A DNA stretch of 28,039 bases from IMG/VR virus record IMGVR_UViG_3300049825_000443, positions 1 to 28,039 of that record; one strand, given 5' to 3'. Of this stretch, positions 6,572-17,976 are shown in pieces. Each line of letters starts with the position of its first letter. The first letter of the stretch is position 1. Under the pieces are notes generated by a model. The model saw only the letters and a program-made list of their open reading frames with translations. It searched no databases and was not told the origin of the DNA. A program made the position numbers and the translations under genes. The DNA comes from a virus.

Positions 6572-7132
6572 TTAAACGGCCTGGCGGGGCTTTTGAGGCC
6601 CTAGGGCGGGTGGCGCGGGGATCAATTCTGCGCCCGCGGGTGCAGATTCGGCCAGCGCAGCGTCATCGTCGTCGTCAAACAGGTCAGTCTGAAGATGGGC
6701 CTGCCCGCGGGCGGCCGCCGGCTCGCCGGGCAGCAGCCCATCTTGCATGCGGGCTGCATTCAGCACGTTGATGACTTGCCGAACGGTGTAGCCGGTGGTC
6801 AGCGCAATGTCGGCCAACTGCATGCGATGGCGGCTGCGCAGATCTATGACGCGCTGGTGGCGAAGCTGGCGCAGCACGCCGTCGTACTTCGGCAGGTGCA
6901 GCGTCTGCCCCGACAACTCAGCCACCAGGGCGGCTGCAGCATCAATGCCAACCAGGTCCACCAGGCCGGCAAACTGCGGTGATCGGGCGTTCTTCGGCAC
7001 GGTGAACGGCGTGCCGCCCCGTTCCTGCACCAGGCGGTAGGCCGCCGCCTCACCCATCAGCCGCACCAGCATGCGCAGCTGTACAGGCAGCATGTGCAGT
7101 GCGATACCGGTGGCGCTGGCGGGGCGGGACAT
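6572..7132 (-). CDS. mor: Mor/C-type transcription activator
   Basis: 186 aa from ATG 7132; a TTG at 7141 overlapping the gemA stop is an alternative. The N-terminal helical part (IALHMLPVQLRMLVRLMGE...YRLVQERGG) is followed by 'FTVPKN', 'LVDLVGIDAAAALVAELSGQTLHLPKYDGVLRQL' (in pieces) and a helix-turn-helix 'VIDLRSRHRMQLADIALTTGYTVRQVINVLN'. This is the architecture of Mu Mor/C: a dimerisation part with a beta-hairpin (L-x-L-P-K), then a C-terminal HTH. An acidic, Pro-rich tail of ~50 residues with DDDDD is extra. As last gene of the early operon, directly ahead of the head operon, it fits the role of switching on late transcription. It is the obvious candidate to bind the three dyads. Confidence 0.8.
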   Translation of the reverse strand: MSRPASATGIALHMLPVQLRMLVRLMGEAAAYRLVQERGGTPFTVPKNARSPQFAGLVDLVGIDAAAALVAELSGQTLHLPKYDGVLRQLRHQRVIDLRSRHRMQLADIALTTGYTVRQVINVLNAARMQDGLLPGEPAAARGQAHLQTDLFDDDDDAALAESAPAGAELIPAPPALGPQKPRQAV

Positions 7133-7137
7133 GTGCG

Positions 7138-7608
7138 TCAATCAGTGGCCAGGCCCAGCCGGCCGAGCCACATCTTCAGACTCTCGATGAGCTTGTCCAT
7201 CTGCGGGCCGGTGGCAAAGCGCAGCGCGCTGAACACACGGGCTTCAAGCTGGCGCTTGGCCCAGGTCTCGATGGCGGCATTGCAGGCGTCCATGTCGGCC
7301 GGGGGGTCTACCTCGCCGGCATCGGCCAGCACGTACCACATGGCGCGCAGCTTGCGCATCTGCGGCGCACGCTGCCAGCCGGATTCAGCCGCCGCCTTGC
7401 TGCCGGACTTGGGCTTCACCACGAAGCCGCTGGCCTTCATGTGGGCAAGCACCTGCTGGCGCTCGGCGGCCGTGAGCGCGGTGCTGCTTGTCTTGCCGCC
7501 GCTGAAACGGGCCAGCATGTCGCGGTAGGTGCCGTCGTCAAGCTGCAGCGCACGACGGCCGATCTGAATGAGCTTGACCTCGAAGGCGGCCGTGGTGGCG
7601 CTGCTCAT
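7138..7608 (-). CDS. gemA: GemA-like regulatory protein (Mu gp16, DUF1018)
   Basis: 156 aa. 'KLIQIGRRALQLDDGTYRDMLARFSGGKTSSTALTAAERQQVLAHMKASGF' (shown as family pattern: K-L-I, L-D-D-x-x-Y-R-x-M-L, G-K-x-S-S, L-T-A-A-E, L-x-H-M-K) is the DUF1018/GemA signature. The C-terminus has the usual second helical part ending ML..LG. In Mu, GemA affects host DNA supercoiling and gene expression and is expressed early; its placement before mor is conserved. Here its ATG (7606-7608) overlaps the stop of the integron integrase as ATGA, so translation of gemA may depend on ribosomes leaving the integrase gene. Confidence 0.85.
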   Translation of the reverse strand: MSSATTAAFEVKLIQIGRRALQLDDGTYRDMLARFSGGKTSSTALTAAERQQVLAHMKASGFVVKPKSGSKAAAESGWQRAPQMRKLRAMWYVLADAGEVDPPADMDACNAAIETWAKRQLEARVFSALRFATGPQMDKLIESLKMWLGRLGLATD

Positions 7609-8639
7609 TGCAATGCGTCCAACGGGCTGCGCGTACCGCTGGCGCCCACTTGTGCCACATGCGTGTAGATCATGGTGGTGCTGACATCGGCATGTCCCAG
7701 CAGGGCTTGCACTGTCCGGATGTCTTTGCCGGACTCAAGCAGGTGCGTGGCGAAGCAGTGGCGCAGCGTGTGCGGGGTGGCCGGCTTGTGCACGCCGGCA
7801 GCCTGCACAGCGGCTTTCATGGCACGCTGGATGGATGTTTCATGCAGGTGGTGGCGGCGCAAGACGCCCGCCTCACGCGGATTGGCGCAGTAGCCCTTGG
7901 TGGCAAAGACGAACTGCCAACCCAGCGAGCTGGCGGCGCGCGGAAACTTGACGCGCAGCGCATGCGGCATCTCGACATCGGCATAACCGGTCGCCATGTC
8001 CTTGGCATGCCAGCGCTCACGCTGCAGAAGCTGGGCGCGCAGGTCTGGCAGCAGGCTGCGCGCGAGGGTTGTGACGCGATCTTTCGCGCCCTTGCCGTCA
8101 CGCACAGTGACCTGCAGGCGCTCAAGGTCCAGATCCTTGAAGCGAAGACGCAGCGCCTCCATCAGGCGCAGGCCCGATCCATACATCAGCCGCAGAATCA
8201 GACCTTCAGTGCCTTCGGTCTTGGCGAACACCCGCCGCAACTCTTCGACGGACAGCACCATGGGTACATGCTGACTCGCCTTGGCCTGCACGATGTTGTC
8301 CAGCCACGGCAGGCTGACGCCAAGCACCTGTGCATAGAGAAACAACAACGCGCTACGGGCTTGCTTGGCTGTGCTGGCTGTGACGTTTCGCTGGACAGCC
8401 AAGTGGGAGAGGTAGGCCTCGACTTCAGCCGCGCCCATTTCCCGCGGATGGCGCCGGCCGTGAAAGCGTACAAAGTCCCGCGTCCAGTAGACGTAGGCCT
8501 TCTCCGTCTTCAGCGCGTAGTGCCGAACTCGAATGGCTTCACGCACGGCGTCGGTCAGCATTCGTGGACGCGCGCTGCTTATCTGGCCTTCAGTGCCGCG
8601 ACTATCAGCGGCAAGGGACTGAGAATCAATGGTTTGCAT
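7605..8639 (-). CDS. intI: Integron integrase (IntI-type tyrosine recombinase)
   Basis: 344 aa. SAM-like N-terminal domain (~29-125) with 'RVRHYALKTEKAYVYW', 'FVRFHGRRHPREMGAAEVEAYLSHLAV' (integron-type pattern) and 'SALLFLYAQVLG'. The catalytic domain has R158 (YGSGLR), Lys in GKGAKDR (183/186), H290 and R293 (PHTLRH), H316 (LLGHADVS) and nucleophile Y325 (MIYTHV), so the active site looks intact. The IntI-specific insertion is present at ~228-270 (GWQFVFATKGY ... LRRHHLHETSIQRA), which distinguishes it from XerC/D and ordinary phage integrases. It ends RSPLDAL like many IntI. ATG 8639 lacks a clear ribosome-binding site; ATG 8561 (MLTDAVREAI) is a plausible alternative start that would leave more room for attI. 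No LexA box or private promoter was seen; it appears transcribed with the phage operon. Confidence 0.92.
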   Translation of the reverse strand: MQTIDSQSLAADSRGTEGQISSARPRMLTDAVREAIRVRHYALKTEKAYVYWTRDFVRFHGRRHPREMGAAEVEAYLSHLAVQRNVTASTAKQARSALLFLYAQVLGVSLPWLDNIVQAKASQHVPMVLSVEELRRVFAKTEGTEGLILRLMYGSGLRLMEALRLRFKDLDLERLQVTVRDGKGAKDRVTTLARSLLPDLRAQLLQRERWHAKDMATGYADVEMPHALRVKFPRAASSLGWQFVFATKGYCANPREAGVLRRHHLHETSIQRAMKAAVQAAGVHKPATPHTLRHCFATHLLESGKDIRTVQALLGHADVSTTMIYTHVAQVGASGTRSPLDALQ

Positions 8640-8691
8640 TGGATGGCTATTCGGATAGGCAGCGACGCGTGCTGTTCACTTGACGTTGGGC
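8640..8691. other. attI: Candidate attI region with core site GTTGGGC
   Basis: GTTGGGC at 8685-8691 matches the integron core GTTRRRY. It lies 46 bp from the intI start, on the side where attI is expected, with the same orientation as the R' box of the attC at 9277-9283. The segment between 8640 and 8684 has no gene. I do not see clear direct repeats like those of attI1, so the attI call rests on position and the core alone. The exchange point would be between G8685 and T8686. If intI actually starts at 8561, attI could extend to about 8562. Confidence 0.55.
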
Positions 8692-9191
8692 GCTTGCAGG
8701 TTCTCCACCGCCCAGGCGCGCATACGCTGCCAGCGCTCGCGCGGGTGGTTGTCGTTGTGCACTCTTACGCTCTTGGTGTGGCGGCCCCAATCAGGGTAGT
8801 GCGGACGAACCGGGCCGCAGAACTCCAGGTCTACCCACTTCCACTCATCCACGGCGCACTCGTCGTTCATGTACATGATTTCGGCCGCCATCGCAGGCGC
8901 AATGCCGAAGCGCTGGCCCACCGTCGCGGGGTCGCAGTCGTCTTCGTCGCCCAGGTCGTCCATCTTCGTGCCACGCTTCGCGCCCAGCACGCCCAGCGTG
9001 CAGAACTCACCCTCTGGCGTGGCAAAACTGCCCGGGTATAGGCGCTTGTCTTCCATCGCGTCCAGTGCCTCCACCAGTTCGCGCAGCAGGGCCTTCCCGC
9101 GCTGCCCGTGCAATGCCCGCTTCACGGCCTGGCGCCAGCGGCCCTGTGCCAGCGGGTCGTCGTTGTCGTCTGTGTAGCCACTCCTGCTCAT
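8676..9191 (-). CDS. Cassette-borne phage hypothetical protein
   Basis: 171 aa. Starts MSRSGYTDDNDDPL, then 'WRQAVKRALHGQRGKALLRELVEALDAMEDKRL', 'GEFCTLGVLGAKRG', 'FGIAPAMAAEIMYMND' and 'RWQRMRAWAVENL' (quoted in pieces as family landmarks). This matches a common phage hypothetical family starting MSRSGYSDD, whose members lie in early regions; no function is known. A ribosome-binding site (AAAGGTGG) precedes ATG 9191. The gene lies between two integron core sites and reads toward intI. Its family-conserved part ends at about '...AVENL'; the last residues QAPNVK and the TGA at 8676-8678 are supplied by the core site and the attI side, so the ORF has no stop of its own inside the cassette. Confidence 0.75.
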   Translation of the reverse strand: MSRSGYTDDNDDPLAQGRWRQAVKRALHGQRGKALLRELVEALDAMEDKRLYPGSFATPEGEFCTLGVLGAKRGTKMDDLGDEDDCDPATVGQRFGIAPAMAAEIMYMNDECAVDEWKWVDLEFCGPVRPHYPDWGRHTKSVRVHNDNHPRERWQRMRAWAVENLQAPNVK

Positions 9192-9225
9192 TGCTCGCCA
9201 CCTTTCGTAAGTTCATCCACCCCGC

Positions 9226-9283
9226 GCCCAACACGCAAATCAAGCTGACCGCCTACGGCGGCAGCTTATTTGCAACGTTAGGC
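9226..9283 (+). other. attC: attC recombination site
   Basis: 58 bp in the order R'' GCCCAAC (9226-9232), L'' GCAAATCAAGCTG (9235-9247), a short loop-forming spacer (ACCGCCTACGGCGG, 9248-9261), L' CAGCTTATTTGC (9262-9273), and R' GTTAGGC (9277-9283). The two L arms are perfectly complementary except for one extra C at 9241 in L''. This gives an unpaired G on the bottom strand, the hallmark extrahelical base that sets attC polarity. R'' and R' pair with one mismatch, and the spacer itself can form a small CCGCC/GGCGG stem. The site is oriented so that the cassette it terminates lies to its left, toward intI. Confidence 0.9.
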
Positions 9284-9552
9284 AGCTCACAGCGGGAGCA
9301 CCAGCCTTTCGGGATACCGTGGTCACAGTGAGTTGCCTGCCACGCGGGCGGCGGCTCGCTGTCCGGCAACGGTGCAATCGTCACGCGCGCCTCCTCAAAT
9401 GGCCGCAGCTTCTGCGCAGCCAGCAGCGCAAGCCGCGCTCTGGGGTGCGAGTCGTAGACCCGTGCATTCCGTGCGTCCAGGCAACGCCCTGGGTCGCCGC
9501 TGATCGGCGCGAGAAACACGCCGGGCTCAAGTTCAACAATCCAGTTACTCAT
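9253..9552 (-). CDS. Small zinc-binding-like phage protein ending inside attC
   Basis: 99 aa from ATG 9552 (MSNWIVELEPGVFLAPISGD), which overlaps the preceding stop as ATGA. The body has 'RVYDSHPRARLALLAAQKLRPFEEARV'-type sequence, common in small phage proteins that summarise a per-sample value. It ends with 'THCDHGIPKGWCSRC', a likely Cys/His metal site. The last residues (LPNVANKLPP) and the TAG at 9253-9255 are encoded by the attC. If the cassette were excised the reading frame would instead end ...CELPNVK and stop at 8676. Function unknown. Confidence 0.65.
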   Translation of the reverse strand: MSNWIVELEPGVFLAPISGDPGRCLDARNARVYDSHPRARLALLAAQKLRPFEEARVTIAPLPDSEPPPAWQATHCDHGIPKGWCSRCELPNVANKLPP

Positions 9553-9740
9553 GCGAACTCCACGCGCGAGCCGCAGGCCGGACACGGAGCGCTTCTCGGT
9601 GTCAGGCGCCGGCCGCGCCACTGACAAATCTCGCAACGCACGGACATCGGCCTGCGCAGGCTTGTGCGCTTCGGACGCAGCCGCCCAACCCCTGGTTTGA
9701 AAGAAGGCGGTACAGCAGCAGTGGTGTCTTCAGGCTTCAT
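9549..9740 (-). CDS. Small zinc-ribbon protein
   Basis: 63 aa from ATG 9740, with ribosome-binding site AAAGGGG about 6 bp upstream; a GTG one codon earlier is also possible. The N-terminal half is basic and Pro-rich (KPGVGRLRPKRTSLRRP). The C-terminal half holds two CxxC knuckles, 'CEICQWRGRRL' and 'CPACGSRVEF', giving a zinc ribbon. It overlaps the upstream gene by 11 bp and the downstream gene by ATGA. Function unknown; probably a DNA- or protein-binding early phage protein. Confidence 0.6.
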   Translation of the reverse strand: MKPEDTTAAVPPSFKPGVGRLRPKRTSLRRPMSVRCEICQWRGRRLTPRSAPCPACGSRVEFA

Positions 9741-9918
9741 CACGCACCCCTTTCAACGGGACGTTCCGCGCGTAGTCAGCGCAAACCCAGCGCTGCCCGT
9801 CATGCCGAGCCGGCGCCTCGCGTGAGGCCTTGGCGTCGCGCAGCGCGCAGGTGCGGCACATTGGCAGCAAGACGGCCGGGCGCACCGGGAACGCTTGGCC
9901 TGGGCAGGGCTTGCTCAT
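9730..9918 (-). CDS. Small Cys-containing early phage protein
   Basis: 62 aa from ATG 9918, overlapping the stop of the HD gene as ATGA. It contains 'PMCRTCALRDAKAS' and 'QRWVCADYARN', i.e. CxxC plus a further Cys, which could form a metal site with the N-terminal CPG Cys. The sequence type (CRTC.....W.C.D) is common among short phage proteins encoded next to nucleotide-metabolism genes. No function is known. Confidence 0.6.
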   Translation of the reverse strand: MSKPCPGQAFPVRPAVLLPMCRTCALRDAKASREAPARHDGQRWVCADYARNVPLKGVRDEA

Positions 9919-10439
9919 GACTGCATCAGCTCCCAATACCGCAGCATGAACATGCGGCGCGCCAAGACGCTTTCGACGGGCTCGATCCTGGCCGGCAGCG
10001 GCTGGGCGCCTTCAAGGCAGTCCCAGTCGTCGGGATGCGCCGGCATCAGGTCGCGCTTCTCAGTGGCCAGCAGCACCATGTCGGCGTGCTTGACCTCGGG
10101 CGGCAGGTCTGGCGACAGGCCGAAGCGCCCCAGCACCACGGCCTCAACGCGCTTCTCTATGATCTTGTAGTCCGGCAGCAGTGCCTTCAGCGGCCGGCTC
10201 ACGTCGCCGATGAATGCCTCTGCAGCATCGTGCAACAGCCCGGCCAGGGCGTGCTGCGGCGGCACAACTTGGCTGACCAGAACCGAATGCTGGGCAACGC
10301 TGTAGAACTGCCGCACGGCGCCAGTGAAGCGGCAGATGTGCGCCAGGTGGTGGGCAATCTCCTCAATCGTGAACCGGCTCCGCTCCGGGTGCACGAAGTC
10401 GAAGCAAGTGCCGCCGGCCGTGATGATGTCTGTCTTCAT
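9915..10439 (-). CDS. HD-domain phosphohydrolase (YfbR-like, phage type)
   Basis: 174 aa. 'ICRFTGAVRQFYSVAQHSVLVS' with H51, then 'HALAGLLHDAAEAFIGDV' with H70-D71 and a following GDVSRPLK, gives the HD-superfamily metal site H...HD...D; a later D lies in 'EVKHADMVLLATEKRDLM'. Phage members of this family are usually treated as dNMP phosphohydrolases that remodel the nucleotide pool. A recalled family consensus (FDF, IA+ALSH.CRFTGH, FYSVAQHSVLVS) matches closely. ATG 10439 is preceded by AAGG. It fits an early DNA-metabolism role in the operon. Confidence 0.85.
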   Translation of the reverse strand: MKTDIITAGGTCFDFVHPERSRFTIEEIAHHLAHICRFTGAVRQFYSVAQHSVLVSQVVPPQHALAGLLHDAAEAFIGDVSRPLKALLPDYKIIEKRVEAVVLGRFGLSPDLPPEVKHADMVLLATEKRDLMPAHPDDWDCLEGAQPLPARIEPVESVLARRMFMLRYWELMQS

Positions 10440-13079: not shown

Positions 13080-13293
13080 GGTTTGTATCCTTCGGCTTCA
13101 CTTCTATGCGGGCGGCCGACTGGAATCGCTCCAGCGCGTCGTCGTAGGCGTCGAAACTGCTGGCGAAAGCACCCTCATAGGTGAAGCGGTGTCCAACGTC
13201 GTTGGTGACGGCCACAGTCATCACATGGCGCGCCTTACCCTGCGAGGCTGGGTCATTGATCCAAGCCGGCAGGCTTGCGGTGCTGCTGCTCAT
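13066..13293 (-). CDS. Small early phage protein, unknown
   Basis: 75 aa from ATG 13293, overlapping the MuB-like stop as ATGA. A short hydrophilic beta/alpha protein with 'HVMTVAVTNDVGHRFTYEG' then 'FDAYDDALERFQSAARIEVKP'. The pattern (ordered strand pair followed by a helix with D-A-Y-x-D-A) occurs in small proteins downstream of MuB in related prophages. No function known. Confidence 0.55.
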   Translation of the reverse strand: MSSSTASLPAWINDPASQGKARHVMTVAVTNDVGHRFTYEGAFASSFDAYDDALERFQSAARIEVKPKDTNHADT

Positions 13294-14312
13294 CGCGCGT
13301 CTCCCCGCTTGATGAAGCACACGGTGCTGGCGATCTTGTCTATCAGCTTGGCGTTCACCAGGTGGCGGCCCACGCCGTAGTCACGAATGGCAGGCAGCAG
13401 GCTTTCGGTCAGCGTGCGGGCCGATCCTTTGCAGTACGACCACAGGGCCTCCAGCACTTCATCAGTGGCCTGCACGGCCGTGTCATCGGCGTTCTTCAGG
13501 GTCTCCAGCGTCTTGCGCGCAATGTCGTCCATGTCATCGCGAGTGATGGTCTCAATGGTGGGCGGCCACATGCTCACCCGGCTGCGCAGCTCCTGAAACT
13601 GGCCTACCTCTGGCGCCAGCATGGCGTGCAGCTTCTGGTTTCCCGTCAGCACGATGCCGACGCCAGCCTTGTCACGCACCCGGCGCAGATAGTGCAGCGC
13701 GATGGGGCAGAGGTTGTTTGCTTCGTCGGCAATCACCAGGTACTGGGTGCCCTTGATAGCCTTCAGCACTGCGGCGAACTTGCGGCCCAGGCCAGACGGC
13801 GGGTCGATGCGTAGCTGCTGCAGCAGCTCGTCCAGCAGCCGCCCGGTGGTCATGTTGGGGTCGGCCTCCACCATCAGCGTGAGGGGGCGGCGCTTGAGGT
13901 ATTCCTTGAAGGTGCGCGTCTTGCCCACGCCCACGCTGGCAATCAGCACACCCAGGTTCGCTTCCTTGCGCATGCGGTCGCACACCACGAAGACCAGGCG
14001 GTGCACGCTGCCTTCGATGTAGCCGGGCGAGCCATGCTCCATGCGCTCGCCCTCAACGGCCAGCACCTGCAGCATCTGATCCAGCAGCGCCCCGGGCGGG
14101 CTGGGGTACTTCTGCGCCAGTATCTGGCTGATGGTGCTGCCGTTGATGCCGGCCTTACGGGCCAGCCAGGCGCGCGGCAGGTCCCGTTGCTGCAGCCATT
14201 CGGCCACGGCGCGGGCGCGCTCTAGGTCTTCCTGGCTGTAGGCGTAGCGTGGCAACGCGTCAGCCGGGTTCTCCGCCTGCGCTGCCTTGACTTGCCTGCC
14301 GATAGGGCTCAT
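13290..14312 (-). CDS. Transposition AAA+ ATPase (MuB-like)
   Basis: 340 aa. N-terminal HTH (~residues 40-70: DLPRAWLARKAGINGSTISQ) like MuB, then an AAA_22-type ATPase: Walker A 'ASVGVGKT' at 125-132, Walker B 'YLVIADEAN' at 191-199, followed by 'RDKAGVGIVLTGN' (sensor-1-like region) and a C-terminal helical lid. MuB binds DNA as ATP-dependent filaments, delivers target DNA to the transposase and gives target immunity. Start at ATG 14312 overlaps the transposase stop by 4 bp, so the two should be made together. Confidence 0.9.
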   Translation of the reverse strand: MSPIGRQVKAAQAENPADALPRYAYSQEDLERARAVAEWLQQRDLPRAWLARKAGINGSTISQILAQKYPSPPGALLDQMLQVLAVEGERMEHGSPGYIEGSVHRLVFVVCDRMRKEANLGVLIASVGVGKTRTFKEYLKRRPLTLMVEADPNMTTGRLLDELLQQLRIDPPSGLGRKFAAVLKAIKGTQYLVIADEANNLCPIALHYLRRVRDKAGVGIVLTGNQKLHAMLAPEVGQFQELRSRVSMWPPTIETITRDDMDDIARKTLETLKNADDTAVQATDEVLEALWSYCKGSARTLTESLLPAIRDYGVGRHLVNAKLIDKIASTVCFIKRGDAR

Positions 14313-16006
14313 GGCTTGTCTCCGTTGTAAGACGTGAGGTCGATGACGATGTCGTCGTCCGCCTCTGGCCTGGCCGCTTTGGCGGGCTTGTTCGGCTTGT
14401 CGGCGGGCGCCTGCAGGGCCAGGGCGGGCGCTGGCAAGCCCAGTTCGGCGCCGATCTCGAGGTCTTCGATGGCGCGGGCCTGGGCGTCGGCGTTGATGGG
14501 GTCGGCACGCCGGGCATGCGCTTCATCCAGCTTGCGTTCCAGGCGCTTGACCTGGCCTTTAAGCCGCCGGTCACGGCCCTCTTCAATGCGGCTGGTGGGA
14601 AGCACGCCGATCACGCTCACCAGCTTGGCTTCGCAGATCAGGCGACCCTTCTTGTCTTGCACCCACACCAGGCCGTCCTTGTGTAGGTCGTACTCCACCA
14701 TGACCTTCTTGCCGTCGTACAGCGCCAGGGCCTCGTGGTAGTAGAAGCGGTTGTGCAGGCGCACGGTCTGCCGGCCCACGGTGGCCTCTTGGCTGGGGCG
14801 CATCACAGCCTCGGCTTCCACGCCCACGGCCACGGGCACCAGCTCGGCCCACAACTGGGCCGGGGTGCGGCCGTCCAGCACGTCCATGGGCTCATTGAAG
14901 TAGCTGTCCATGAACTTGGCGAAGCTGCTCACGTAGTCCTGAAAGCTGGGCAGCTTGCGGCGGCCAGCCGCCAGTTCGGCGCTGAGGCGGCGGTTCACTT
15001 CCTCAGCCATGTCGTGGCCGCAGTAAACCTGGCCGCCGAAAAAGAACTTATCGTGCTTGTCGCGGCAGGTGCGAAAGAAGCGCTCTATCCAGCCCTTGCC
15101 GTGCGGGTTGCCAGGAAGCGCGCCGATCACGTCGATGTCGAACTTCTGGTACCAGCCGGTGCTCTCGTCGCTCAGCAGCTTGGCGCGGTAGCCGGCGCCA
15201 CGGTCTATGTACAGCCAGGCGGGCACATGGTCATGCCCCAGCATGGCCGCGCTCAGCGCGAAGAGCGTGCTGACGGCGCTTTCACTTTCGGTGAAGTACC
15301 AGCCCGGGACGTAGCGGCTCTTGATGTCGATGAAGCAGGTCAGCTCAGGGCGGAAGGGCTTGCCCGTGTTCGGGTGGGCCACGTAGCAGTCAACGGTGTG
15401 GCCGTCACCGGCGTAAATCTCGCCCACCAGCACTTCATCGAGGTTGCGGCGCTGGTACTTCTGGCGGGTCAGCCGGTGCAGGTGTTTGCCTATGCGCGCT
15501 GGGCTCTTCTCCCCCAGCGTGGCCGGCAGGGCCTTCAGGTAGCGCTTGACGCGGCTTTCCGTGGCGTCAGCGAAGCCTTCGCTGCGCAGGCGCCAGGCCA
15601 CGTCGGCGAAGCCGGGCTTGCTGGGGCTGTTGTACAGGGCCACGGCGCGCTGGTCCCACCCGTAGGCCAGGCCGTCTTTGCCGCAGCGCAGGTAGTCACC
15701 CAGCCAGCGCTTGAGGGTGGCGAAGCTGGGCGCGTCTTCGCCTTCCTTCGTGGCCGCGCTTTGCATGGCGTGGGCCACGGCGGGGTCCAGCAAGCCGGCA
15801 GCGGCCTGGGCCAGCACCAGGCGCACGGCGTTGTTCATGCTGGCGCCGCCCTCAACCAGCGCGGCCAGCGGGGCGATGACGGCCTGGCGCATTTCGGCCG
15901 CGCGGCGCTTGGCCTCGGTGGCTGCGTCCCAGGGCTTGGCACCCAGAGCCACGGGCAGGTCGCTCATCTGGCGAACGTCTGAGACGAGCTTGAGCAGGGC
16001 AACCAT
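14309..16006 (-). CDS. DDE transposase (MuA-like)
   Basis: 565 aa from ATG 16006; the frame is open to 16069, but that extension overlaps the upstream gene. Catalytic triad visible as D201 ('AGDGHTVD'), D268 ('LYIDRGAGY') and E308 ('GKGWIERFF') in an rve/RNase H-like core, preceded by helical DNA-binding parts (FATLKRWLGDYL; ESRVKRYLKALPA) and followed by a Mu-type beta-barrel (~400-470, with 'RPSQEATVGRQTVRLHNRFYYHEALALYDGKKVMVEYD' in pieces). The tail is helical and basic, then acidic. It catalyses strand transfer during integration and replicative transposition. Somewhat shorter than MuA (663 aa), as in BcepMu/B3-type relatives. Confidence 0.93.
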   Translation of the reverse strand: MVALLKLVSDVRQMSDLPVALGAKPWDAATEAKRRAAEMRQAVIAPLAALVEGGASMNNAVRLVLAQAAAGLLDPAVAHAMQSAATKEGEDAPSFATLKRWLGDYLRCGKDGLAYGWDQRAVALYNSPSKPGFADVAWRLRSEGFADATESRVKRYLKALPATLGEKSPARIGKHLHRLTRQKYQRRNLDEVLVGEIYAGDGHTVDCYVAHPNTGKPFRPELTCFIDIKSRYVPGWYFTESESAVSTLFALSAAMLGHDHVPAWLYIDRGAGYRAKLLSDESTGWYQKFDIDVIGALPGNPHGKGWIERFFRTCRDKHDKFFFGGQVYCGHDMAEEVNRRLSAELAAGRRKLPSFQDYVSSFAKFMDSYFNEPMDVLDGRTPAQLWAELVPVAVGVEAEAVMRPSQEATVGRQTVRLHNRFYYHEALALYDGKKVMVEYDLHKDGLVWVQDKKGRLICEAKLVSVIGVLPTSRIEEGRDRRLKGQVKRLERKLDEAHARRADPINADAQARAIEDLEIGAELGLPAPALALQAPADKPNKPAKAARPEADDDIVIDLTSYNGDKP

Positions 16007-16010
16007 ATCG

Positions 16011-16352
16011 TCACCCGGCGCTGCGCAGGCTGGCGCCCTGCGCCTGCCACAGCGCCTTGCCTTCTTCAACGCCCGCGAAGAAGGCGTCGGCCTGCGCCGT
16101 GCCCACGGTGAAGTGGCAGAGCAGCCGGCCGCCGGTGGCGCGGTGCATCAGCAGCGCGCGCACGCCTTCGCGGTATTCCACGCTGCGCGGGTTGCGTGGC
16201 CGGTCGAACGCGGCGGCCACCACGCGATCAACTTCGTCCGACACCAACACGGGCATAAGCTCCTGGTCGCAAGCCGGGCAGGCGTGCGGGCCGAAGCCGA
16301 TATGGCTGCTGACGTGGTCGCACCAGCCGCAGTAGTGCTTCAATGCGCTCAT
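16011..16352 (-). CDS. Small zinc-ribbon early phage protein
   Basis: 113 aa. N-terminal zinc ribbon: 'CGWCDHVSSHIGFGPHACPACDQEL' has two CxxC pairs. The C-terminal helical part 'EYREGVRALLMHRATGGRLLCHF' and 'GTAQADAFFAGVEEGKALW' is a pattern seen in many phage small proteins (Y-R-x-G-V-R-A...G-T-x-E-A-D-A-F-F-A-G-x-x-E-G). Function unknown. ATG 16352 overlaps the stop of the frame upstream (ATGA), and its stop is 4 bp from the transposase start. Confidence 0.65.
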   Translation of the reverse strand: MSALKHYCGWCDHVSSHIGFGPHACPACDQELMPVLVSDEVDRVVAAAFDRPRNPRSVEYREGVRALLMHRATGGRLLCHFTVGTAQADAFFAGVEEGKALWQAQGASLRSAG

Positions 16353-16936
16353 GACATCGAACCCTTCTTCTTTGCCACGGCAGGCAGGCGATATCGCAGA
16401 TCTGCAACGCGCTGCCCAAGCCGCTGTAGGCCGTGCCGAAATAGCCAGCCTGCGGCATTGGCTAGAGGCTGATACGCCCAGTGGTTGGACCTCTTGGCGC
16501 GCATGGCGAGAACAGCACTGCTCTGATATCGCAAGCTACGCATTTGCTCCCGCTGAGCCCGCGCGACGGGGCAAAAGCGGGCCGCCTGCCCACGGATGCG
16601 ACGCTCATCGGCCGGACTGCGTGAAAACCGACTCAACAAGTCCGACACACCGCAGCCGCATGTGTCTGGGTGTCTGGCAGATGTGTGCAGAAGCACTGCG
16701 CCTGCTTCGGCCGTTTGTGGAGCACGGGCTGCATCTGCCGATGCATCACGATGGGCCAGACCTGCTGTGCACGCTGTCGGGCATGCATCAGGAGCTGCAG
16801 GACGACTCGGACGCGGACTTGTGGTGGCCGCCGGACTGGGGGCCGAGTCCGTTTGAGTGAGGCCCTGCGACAGGGCCCAATCCAGGAACGCCCGACCGTT
16901 AGCCGCCACACGGGCACGAAGGGCAGCGGGGCTCAT
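16349..16936 (-). CDS. Uncertain early ORF, both ends coupled to neighbours
   Basis: 195-aa frame. Its ATG (16936) overlaps the upstream stop and its TGA (16349) overlaps the next start, both as ATGA, which is strong positional support. The first ~30 residues (AALRARVAANGRAFLDWALSQGL) and the last ~65 (LRYQSSAVLAM ... WLFRHGLQRLGQRVADLRYRLP) look protein-like. The middle has poor codon use and Pro/Ala-rich sequence, and there the opposite strand has better coding character (see the + ORF entry). It may be two genes or one with a low-constraint centre. No function is recognised. Confidence 0.4.
   Translation of the reverse strand: MSPAALRARVAANGRAFLDWALSQGLTQTDSAPSPAATTSPRPSRPAAPDACPTACTAGLAHRDASADAARAPQTAEAGAVLLHTSARHPDTCGCGVSDLLSRFSRSPADERRIRGQAARFCPVARAQREQMRSLRYQSSAVLAMRAKRSNHWAYQPLANAAGWLFRHGLQRLGQRVADLRYRLPAVAKKKGSMS
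16351..16860 (+). CDS. Possible counter-strand ORF with good codon use
   Basis: 169-aa frame antisense to the preceding entry. Its 3' third, from an internal ATG near 16681 (MCAEALRLLRPFVEHGLHLP, then DLLCTLSGMHQEL, ending DLWWPPDWGPSPFE), has high-GC third positions and reads as a natural protein: an amphipathic helix and a Trp-rich end. The 5' part is less convincing. A real plus-strand gene here would be the only one inside the leftward early operon. I recognise no family. Either this or the minus-strand frame may be real, possibly both. Confidence 0.3.
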   Translation: MTSNPSSLPRQAGDIADLQRAAQAAVGRAEIASLRHWLEADTPSGWTSWRAWREQHCSDIASYAFAPAEPARRGKSGPPAHGCDAHRPDCVKTDSTSPTHRSRMCLGVWQMCAEALRLLRPFVEHGLHLPMHHDGPDLLCTLSGMHQELQDDSDADLWWPPDWGPSPFE

Positions 16937-17976
16937 GCCTCACCCCCAGGCCGCTTGGTGGGCCGACCCACCTTCTGCGGGCGATCTTTGGCACGATCCC
17001 ATTCGCGCTGGGCTTTTTCCAGCTTCTCAGCCGCCACCAAGACCTTGAAGCGTTCGGCGGTCTCACCCAACTCCTGCGGGGTGAGGTAGCTCTGCGTCAC
17101 GGGCACGGGGTCGCGGCCGGGCAGCATGTCCAGGTAGCGAGCCATCACGCCGTCGATCTGCAGGCGCACGGCGGCCACGGCAGCCACGGCCAGGCGCAGA
17201 GTGGCGTCTGCGGCGTCGTGTTGAGCATCGACATGGAGAAACTCTTCCAGCTCTGCCCCGGCGGCGCGAAGGCCGTCCACAGCCAAGCCGGCCCGCTTTT
17301 GCATCACCATCACCTCGGCGCGCAGGTCGGCGATGGCGTGCGGAATTCCGTCCTGGCGGTCGGGCAGGCCGCGCTTGAGTTGCTTCTTCAGGGCGACGGC
17401 CTCGGCCTCGGACGTTTCAAGCTCGACCTCGGTGTCCTTGAGGCCACGTTCCAAATCCTTGATGCGCTGGCGTAGGGCGCGCACGCCGATCAGGTTGAGG
17501 TCGATCTCTTCGTCGTCGAGGGCAGCTTCCTGGGCGGCCGGGCTGGCGTTGGCGAGCATCACCACCTTGGTCTTGTGCAGCGCCATCACCTGCTCGCGCT
17601 GCTCCACGGGCAGGCGCGCAACCAGCGCCGCGCCGCGCATCAGTTCGGATGCGCGCTGCTTGGCCATGCCGCGCTCCTCCAGGATCGCGGCGAATGCCTC
17701 AGCCCCCACCTCGGCATGGACGCTGGACAACAGCAACCCAGCCTCGACCATGTGATGCGTGGCCATGTTGTAGGCCTGCATCGCGCGCTCAGTCCGAACG
17801 TTCGGACTGGCGGAAAGGTCGATCTGAAGCCAGACCGCCAGGTCGCGTCCGGACTGGTCGAATTGTTCAGTCCGAACGTTCGGACTGGGTGGGATTTCAA
17901 AACGGCCAACGTCGGCCGGCTTGGCCTGGACGGGCGCAAGGGCGGTGGTGGTTGACTTGGTGTTGGCCATGGTCAT
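16933..17976 (-). CDS. DUF3102-like early phage protein with palindrome-encoded insertions
   Basis: 347 aa (ATG 17976 overlaps the upstream stop; ATG 17970 also possible). Residues ~65-130 ('ATHHMVEAGLLLSSVHAEV', 'FAAILEERGMAKQRASELMRGAALVARLP') match the DUF3102 pattern of a helical domain in which a long helix precedes a small HTH-like part. Residues ~155-200 form a predicted coiled coil (RALRQRIKDLERGLKDTEVEL), and the C-terminus is basic. Near the N-terminus the peptide SPNVRTE occurs twice (~31-37 and ~57-63), each encoded by a perfect 20-bp palindrome. A role in regulation or DNA partition is possible but unproven. Confidence 0.6.
   Translation of the reverse strand: MTMANTKSTTTALAPVQAKPADVGRFEIPPSPNVRTEQFDQSGRDLAVWLQIDLSASPNVRTERAMQAYNMATHHMVEAGLLLSSVHAEVGAEAFAAILEERGMAKQRASELMRGAALVARLPVEQREQVMALHKTKVVMLANASPAAQEAALDDEEIDLNLIGVRALRQRIKDLERGLKDTEVELETSEAEAVALKKQLKRGLPDRQDGIPHAIADLRAEVMVMQKRAGLAVDGLRAAGAELEEFLHVDAQHDAADATLRLAVAAVAAVRLQIDGVMARYLDMLPGRDPVPVTQSYLTPQELGETAERFKVLVAAEKLEKAQREWDRAKDRPQKVGRPTKRPGGEA
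17790..17809. repeat. Perfect 20-bp palindrome, copy 1
   Basis: CAGTCCGAACGTTCGGACTG, fully self-complementary, lies inside the DUF3102-like coding sequence and is read there as part of SPNVRTE. An identical copy lies 78 bp away at 17868-17887. I found no third full copy. Long perfect symmetry inside a gene, repeated at 26 codons, suggests a protein-binding site or a mobile palindromic element rather than chance. Confidence 0.85.
17868..17887. repeat. Perfect 20-bp palindrome, copy 2
   Basis: Identical to the copy at 17790-17809 (CAGTCCGAACGTTCGGACTG) and in the same reading frame, again encoding SPNVRTE. A shorter related symmetric octamer, GTCCGGAC, lies between them at about 17847-17854. 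Both copies lie within 250-430 bp of the early promoter at 18240-18268. Confidence 0.85.

Follow-up and report, generated by a model that had tools for sequence, protein, structure and literature searches.

A probable phage-borne integron of distinct type, with cassette genes flipped into the phage operon and exchange that changes protein tails

Integrons are regarded as bacterial devices that are occasionally picked up by phages, and in class 1 and sedentary chromosomal integrons the cassette genes diverge from the integrase gene, intI, with Pc at attI as their promoter. A different arrangement is seen in the IMG/VR virus record IMGVR_UViG_3300049825_000443, of which positions 1–28,039, a 28,039-base contig, are analysed here as the window. 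Its intI lies in a phage operon, its cassette gene runs toward intI, and genes read in frame through the recombination cores. The locus raises the question of whether it is an integron at all and, if so, whether cassette exchange swaps the tails of the neighbouring proteins, as the original prediction made from the sequence had claimed. The features concerned are as follows.

6572–7141, minus strand: Mor-like middle/late activator, weak match (Pfam PF08765, E 0.003, below cut-off)
7138–7608, minus strand: GemA, a Mu-like early protein, immediately downstream of intI (Pfam PF06252, 99 bits)
7605–8639, minus strand: intI, integron integrase of 344 aa (TIGR02249), overlapping the downstream GemA gene by ATGA
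8640–8691, plus strand: attI region, with R-box core GTTGGGC at 8685–8691; its minus strand gives the tail V-K-stop
8676–9191, minus strand: flipped cassette gene, 171 aa (phrog_25637), ending ...ENLQAPN-VK-stop after reading through the attI core in the Asn frame
8685–9276, plus strand: gene cassette, 592 bp, in the canonical site polarity attI - cassette - attC
9226–9283, plus strand: attC, with R'' GCCCAAC at 9226–9232 and R' GTTAGGC at 9277–9283
9253–9552, minus strand: upstream phage gene, 99 aa, whose 3' end crosses the attC core in frame (...CELPN-VANKLPP-stop)
13290–14312 and 14309–16069, minus strand: MuB-like and MuA-like transposition genes (phrog_296; PF09299), in the direction of the operon

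The operon is Mu-like and lies on the minus strand: the MuA-like and MuB-like transposition genes are followed by small genes, and these by GemA and the weak Mor match, all collinear with intI, which is located between the small genes and GemA. The ATGA overlap with GemA indicates that intI is a member of the phage operon. The encoded protein scored 430 bits against TIGR02249, for which the cut-off is 265, and its IntI-specific RRHH...IQRA patch and catalytic R/K/H/R/H/Y residues were invariant in an alignment with phage IntIs. Judged by these sequence features, it is a genuine integron integrase.

The attI core GTTGGGC, with its G/TT point, precedes the intI start by 46 nt, and sister phages have natural insertions at the equivalent position. 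In the nearest relative, L011, attI has a similar AACGT..AGTGAAC. R'' is exactly complementary to the cassette's own start at 8685–8691, as expected for one circular cassette. Folded as DNA, the minus strand of attC gave a structure of -19.9 kcal/mol (z = -6.3) whose L'' arm carries two extrahelical bases, so that the cassette is bounded by an attC hairpin of canonical polarity. A homing or accidental insertion beside a phage tyrosine recombinase, together with a palindrome arisen by chance at 9226–9283, could in principle give a similar picture, since the window has one cassette only and a second candidate attC at 9684–9769 is unstructured (z +1.2). That explanation is highly improbable and in practice already refuted, because the TIGR02249 score is far over the cut-off, because attC combines its z score with canonical extrahelical bases and an R'' that matches the cassette's own start, and because multi-cassette arrays adjoin the sister IntIs. 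As every testable defining feature of an integron was found, we filed the locus as an integron, in a new layout variant. A third operon gene (ORF 9730–9936, minus strand) reads ARN-VPLKGVRDEA-stop at a GTT, with a core-like AAC at 9763; a second window cassette with this core was rejected, because its candidate attC (9684–9769) folds no better than its shuffles and because a gene starts within it.

On the minus strand the GTT at 8685–8687 becomes an in-frame AAC of the ORF 9191–8676, and the GTT at 9277–9279 is likewise AAC in the minus-strand ORF that ends at 9253 (...SRCELPN-VANKLPP-stop). Direct reading of the sequence thus bears out the claim that both cores are read as Asn, with the coordinates and tails that had been given. 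The stops of the two genes lie in attI and attC, in agreement with the proposal that the recombination sites supply them. Two cores both in the Asn frame are expected by chance with P = 1/9 (0.20 at the family rate of 36/81), so the window locus alone proves little. A PNVK end in homologues away from any core site had been named as evidence against the idea; the 11 cassette-gene homologues (L170–L180) in contigs not retrieved via intI do not end in PNVK. The sole homologue found of the upstream 99-aa gene, in L183, matches residues 1–64 and diverges thereafter. In the cassette protein the last helix is predicted at residues 149–166, with the site-coded residues beyond it, and a fold search against the PDB returned nothing significant. 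A consensus scan of window 8500–9800 found no promoter-like site, and it is plausible that the cassette genes have no private promoters.

It is the relatives of this IntI that give the pattern its meaning. IntI scans provided 80 viral and 80 chromosomal loci, in each case the 80 best matches to the query and no census, and the relatives are without exception contigs assembled from metagenomes. In a tree of 149 IntIs, 63 viral IntIs including the window's formed one group (SH-aLRT 93), inside which none of the 74 chromosomal IntIs fell. In a careful tree of 50 IntIs, which leaves the side of the root unfixed, a single branch divided phage from chromosomal IntIs (support 99/94), and the window IntI was sister to that of L011 (100/98). 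Genes near intI in the sister contigs included terminase, tail fibre, spanin and phage integrase by PHROG matches, indicating that these contigs are phages and not solely Mu-like ones. PHROG matches to terminase, tail and lysis genes were used as phage markers because the Pfam terminase PF03237 was present in only 2 of 20 contigs.

These results bear on the possibility that the phage simply captured an ordinary bacterial integron. Captures have been reported: the complete integrons on Vibrio anguillarum phages, P1 and Shewanella M16-3 are fragments of bacterial integrons of Vibrio, Shewanella and class 1 types (PMC9892861), and CALINs occur in virulent phages (Qi et al. 2023, PMC9892861). Here too, a few viral contigs (L054, L074, L078 and L079) carry a chromosomal-type or class 1 IntI. 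The captured integrons share with the present ones IntI, attI and attC on phage genomes as well as DNA methyltransferase cassettes (PMC9892861). They differ in that the IntIs described here, the window's among the 63, form their own group, that the cassette genes of this group are flipped relative to attC, that intI sits within the phage operon, and that genes cross the core. Moreover, the cassette pool is not shared with the chromosomal loci, phage cassettes being found at 0 of the 80 examined (the 80 best query matches). Capture of an ordinary bacterial integron is accordingly improbable for the window.

Cassettes were located by a chain search that relied on site features only, namely a cassette start complementary to its own R'' together with a hairpin; it was adopted because a strict RYYYAAC...GTTRRRY scan missed most phage arrays. 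Scores above 8 were obtained as false positives in 8 of 42 downstream control regions, and the window itself gave one cassette with a low score of 6.1. Arrays of up to nine cassettes were found by this search 5' of the intIs of the clade. At the viral loci, 132 cassette ORFs were codirectional with intI and the phage operon, 15 were opposite and 33 undecided, these 180 cassettes including a few from loci outside the viral IntI clade. At the chromosomal loci, 95 ran away from intI, 10 were codirectional and 9 undecided. The strand of single cassettes was called from ORF length and Shine-Dalgarno motifs. The 139 codirectional cassette ORFs matched 86 PHROG and 17 Pfam families, the 128 antisense ORFs 3 and 1. 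In 92 of 99 informative phage attC sites, and in 64 of 70 chromosomal ones, the L'' arm held most of the extrahelical bases. Since canonical attC polarity is kept in the phage sites, it is the gene that has been turned and not the recombination site. What had been noted for the window, namely genes that oppose the array but share the direction of the phage operon, is thus a property of the whole family (132 versus 15).

The layout differs from the known ones. With class 1 and sedentary integrons it shares the integrase family, attC architecture and polarity, and the G/TT recombination point; there, genes diverge from intI, whereas here the cassette genes converge on intI, that of the window included, and probably use a phage promoter. 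Treponema chromosomal integrons have a turned intI that is transcribed toward attI, with genes normal relative to attI (PMC3607928). Common to both is that intI and the cassette genes have the same direction; in the window, however, intI is in its usual place and points away from attI, and the gene is flipped relative to both attI and attC and points toward attI. A second, separate viral IntI group was observed in L009, L081, L082, L086 and L087. L009 has flipped cassettes too, two DNA methyltransferase cassettes in tandem, whose genes end before or in the core, and flipping of cassettes may have arisen more than once.

Gene ends were analysed at 33 related phage loci, which together gave 81 confident cassette genes. 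In 36 of them the core is in frame 0 and AAC is read as Asn; 34 of these cross the core. Frame 1 is used by 23 genes, 19 of which stop within 15 nt before the core, mostly with a TGA ending 5 nt before it, and frame 2 by 22, of which 18 stop with a TAA overlapping the core. Core crossing is therefore concentrated in the Asn frame, where it was seen in 34 genes compared with 1 and 2 for the remaining frames (binomial p = 1e-13), since private stops matched to the frame shut off both of the latter. A T at -8 was present in 85% of frame 1 genes compared with 37% of frame 0 genes, and a T at -1 in 90% of frame 2 genes compared with 46%. Such frame-matched stops indicate selection on how the genes end. 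Coding regions are pressed to the cassette edge in any frame, and the genes in the Asn frame borrow their stop.

The suggestion that cassettes come without stops of their own accordingly held in part: 42% of the 81 genes borrow the stop of a neighbouring site, whereas more than half carry a private TGA 5 nt before the core or TAA in it. A conserved frame across cassettes next to related intIs had also been expected and was rejected, the usage of 36:23:22 not being significantly unequal (p = 0.10). Nor was Asn-Val kept at the junction, where the residue after Asn was A, L, V, G, D, E, F, I or S. Selection of phage attC for supplying a stop in the Asn frame was likewise unsupported, as a stop within 12 nt in that frame was found in 17% of phage and 31% of chromosomal attC sites. 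On these grounds the Asn reading might be a meaningless coincidence of tight packing, random frame and free stops from conserved site sequence. The near-equal use of the three frames speaks for it, as does the fact that chromosomal attC, where no gene end is translated from the antisense strand, offers stops equally or more often. It does not explain why the genes are flipped, why the IntIs form a clade or why real tail variants, described below, exist, or why crossing is restricted to the Asn frame (34:1:2) with the other frames closed by private stops. We regard the question of whether the Asn frame itself has a meaning as evenly balanced. Separately, the tail encoded in the Asn frame of phage attI (L014:6839, L016, L024, L028, L031, L046, L069 and L080) is conserved as N-[LFVI]NS... 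and reaches its stop near codon 11; this conservation may reflect IntI binding, since TAAC resembles a left box, or a coding constraint. At L015:5575-6158, a cassette gene reads its neighbour's whole attC in frame and acquires a tail of more than 20 residues from attC sequence only.

Phages from different metagenomes that are otherwise nearly identical differed in their cassettes, and the breakpoints lay precisely at AAC. L014 and L015 represent one phage (99.98% identity over 5.5 kb on one side and 96.5% over 4.3 kb on the other), and L015 has two extra cassettes. A shared gene ends GHN-LNSTTPDVA-stop beside attI in L014 and GHN-G-stop beside a cassette in L015, giving the tail peptide variants ..GHNLNSTTPDVA and ..GHNG. 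Between L016/L018 and L017, three genes vary in this way: RPN-A-stop and RPN-VKVRGPEAA... in the first, SN-AELRGRPLADGPA-stop and SN-DRVEGRD... in the second, and HN-V-stop and HN-GQAQGAEGG...TNEAP-stop in the third. L056 and L059 have PAN-AELRGEE-stop and PAN-VRVERRACKRSRG-stop. In each case the gene is common up to AAC and different beyond it. The same gene with different tails in near-identical phages demonstrates that the predicted tail swap happens in nature, in phages other than the window's. Misjoined assemblies could account for a few of the cassette differences, though AAC is the exact breakpoint time after time. The precise differences between near-identical phages indirectly support IntI-dependent excision and insertion of cassettes. 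Close relatives of the window GemA were sought in viral contigs and none was found, so there was no empty-site or variant version of the window phage, and a tail swap at the window's own locus is a prediction, by which excision would leave the upstream gene ending ...CELPN-VK-stop and the gene of the circular cassette ending ...QAPN-VANKLPP-stop. Many viral contigs (L005, L006, L008, L022, L023, L030, L032, L042, L045, L047, L049, L057 and L058) extend no more than about 250 bases 5' of intI and so break off at attI or close to it. Such breaks are typical assembler behaviour at a variable place, which fits active cassette turnover; chromosomal contigs also end near attI.

Taken together, our data favour, with a probability of roughly 0.85, a phage-borne integron of distinct type, with flipped cassettes in the phage operon, gene ends at the core edge and tail-changing exchange. 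An IntI of the phage lineage, encoded inside a one-directional operon, would insert cassettes at the attI that immediately precedes its own gene. Site polarity is the usual one (attI - cassette - attC) while the enclosed gene is flipped; it thereby shares the direction of the operon and of intI, and its transcription is expected to come from a phage promoter; selection for operon direction would retain only flipped genes. Depending on its frame, a gene ends with TGA 5 nt before the core, with TAA inside the core, or by reading AAC as Asn and borrowing a stop from the neighbouring attC or attI, as the cassette gene and the upstream gene of the window do. When the next cassette is gained, lost or replaced, an Asn-frame gene acquires another C-terminal tail, a change that the proteins presumably tolerate. 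The array geometry implies that a new cassette goes in beside intI, at the end farthest from the promoter, which is the opposite of classical integrons.

Cassette genes matched families of DNA methyltransferases, Mom-like modification, PAPS-reductase-like proteins, DHH phosphoesterase and Lar restriction alleviation, and there was a weak Acb2/Tad1 hairpin match. Between phage lineages, 46 cassette matches were found, with up to 100% identity over 575 bp, and the orientation was identical in every cross-lineage match listed. The benefit of exchange is presumably, for the most part, the counteraction of host defence, and the recognisable cargo (DNA methyltransferases, Mom, Lar and the Acb2/Tad1 match) suggests a concrete mechanism by which phages could trade counter-defence genes one at a time. 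We consider it more likely than not that there is an integron class dedicated to phages, with a separate integrase lineage and flipped-cassette pool, exchanging counter-defence genes in early operons, and that each exchange rewrites the C-terminal tails of the neighbours. Under that reading, the separation from bacterial integrons would arise because a flipped gene is silent from Pc, and two cassette pools unable to mix usefully are predicted, together with a recombination system that routinely edits protein C-termini. No literature report of flipped phage cassettes or of a phage IntI clade was found in a search with preprints and most subscription journals outside its scope, which is weak evidence of absence. 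Viruses appear to run an integron system of their own, fitted to a one-directional polycistronic operon by gene flipping, and scans of phage contigs for arrays under classical orientation rules would misread the flipped genes. Elsewhere in the window, at 17630–17955 inside the ORF 16933–17976, stretches like AGTCCGAACGTTCGG are repeated and the plus strand reads SPNVRTG three times; by their sequence, these look like operator repeats.
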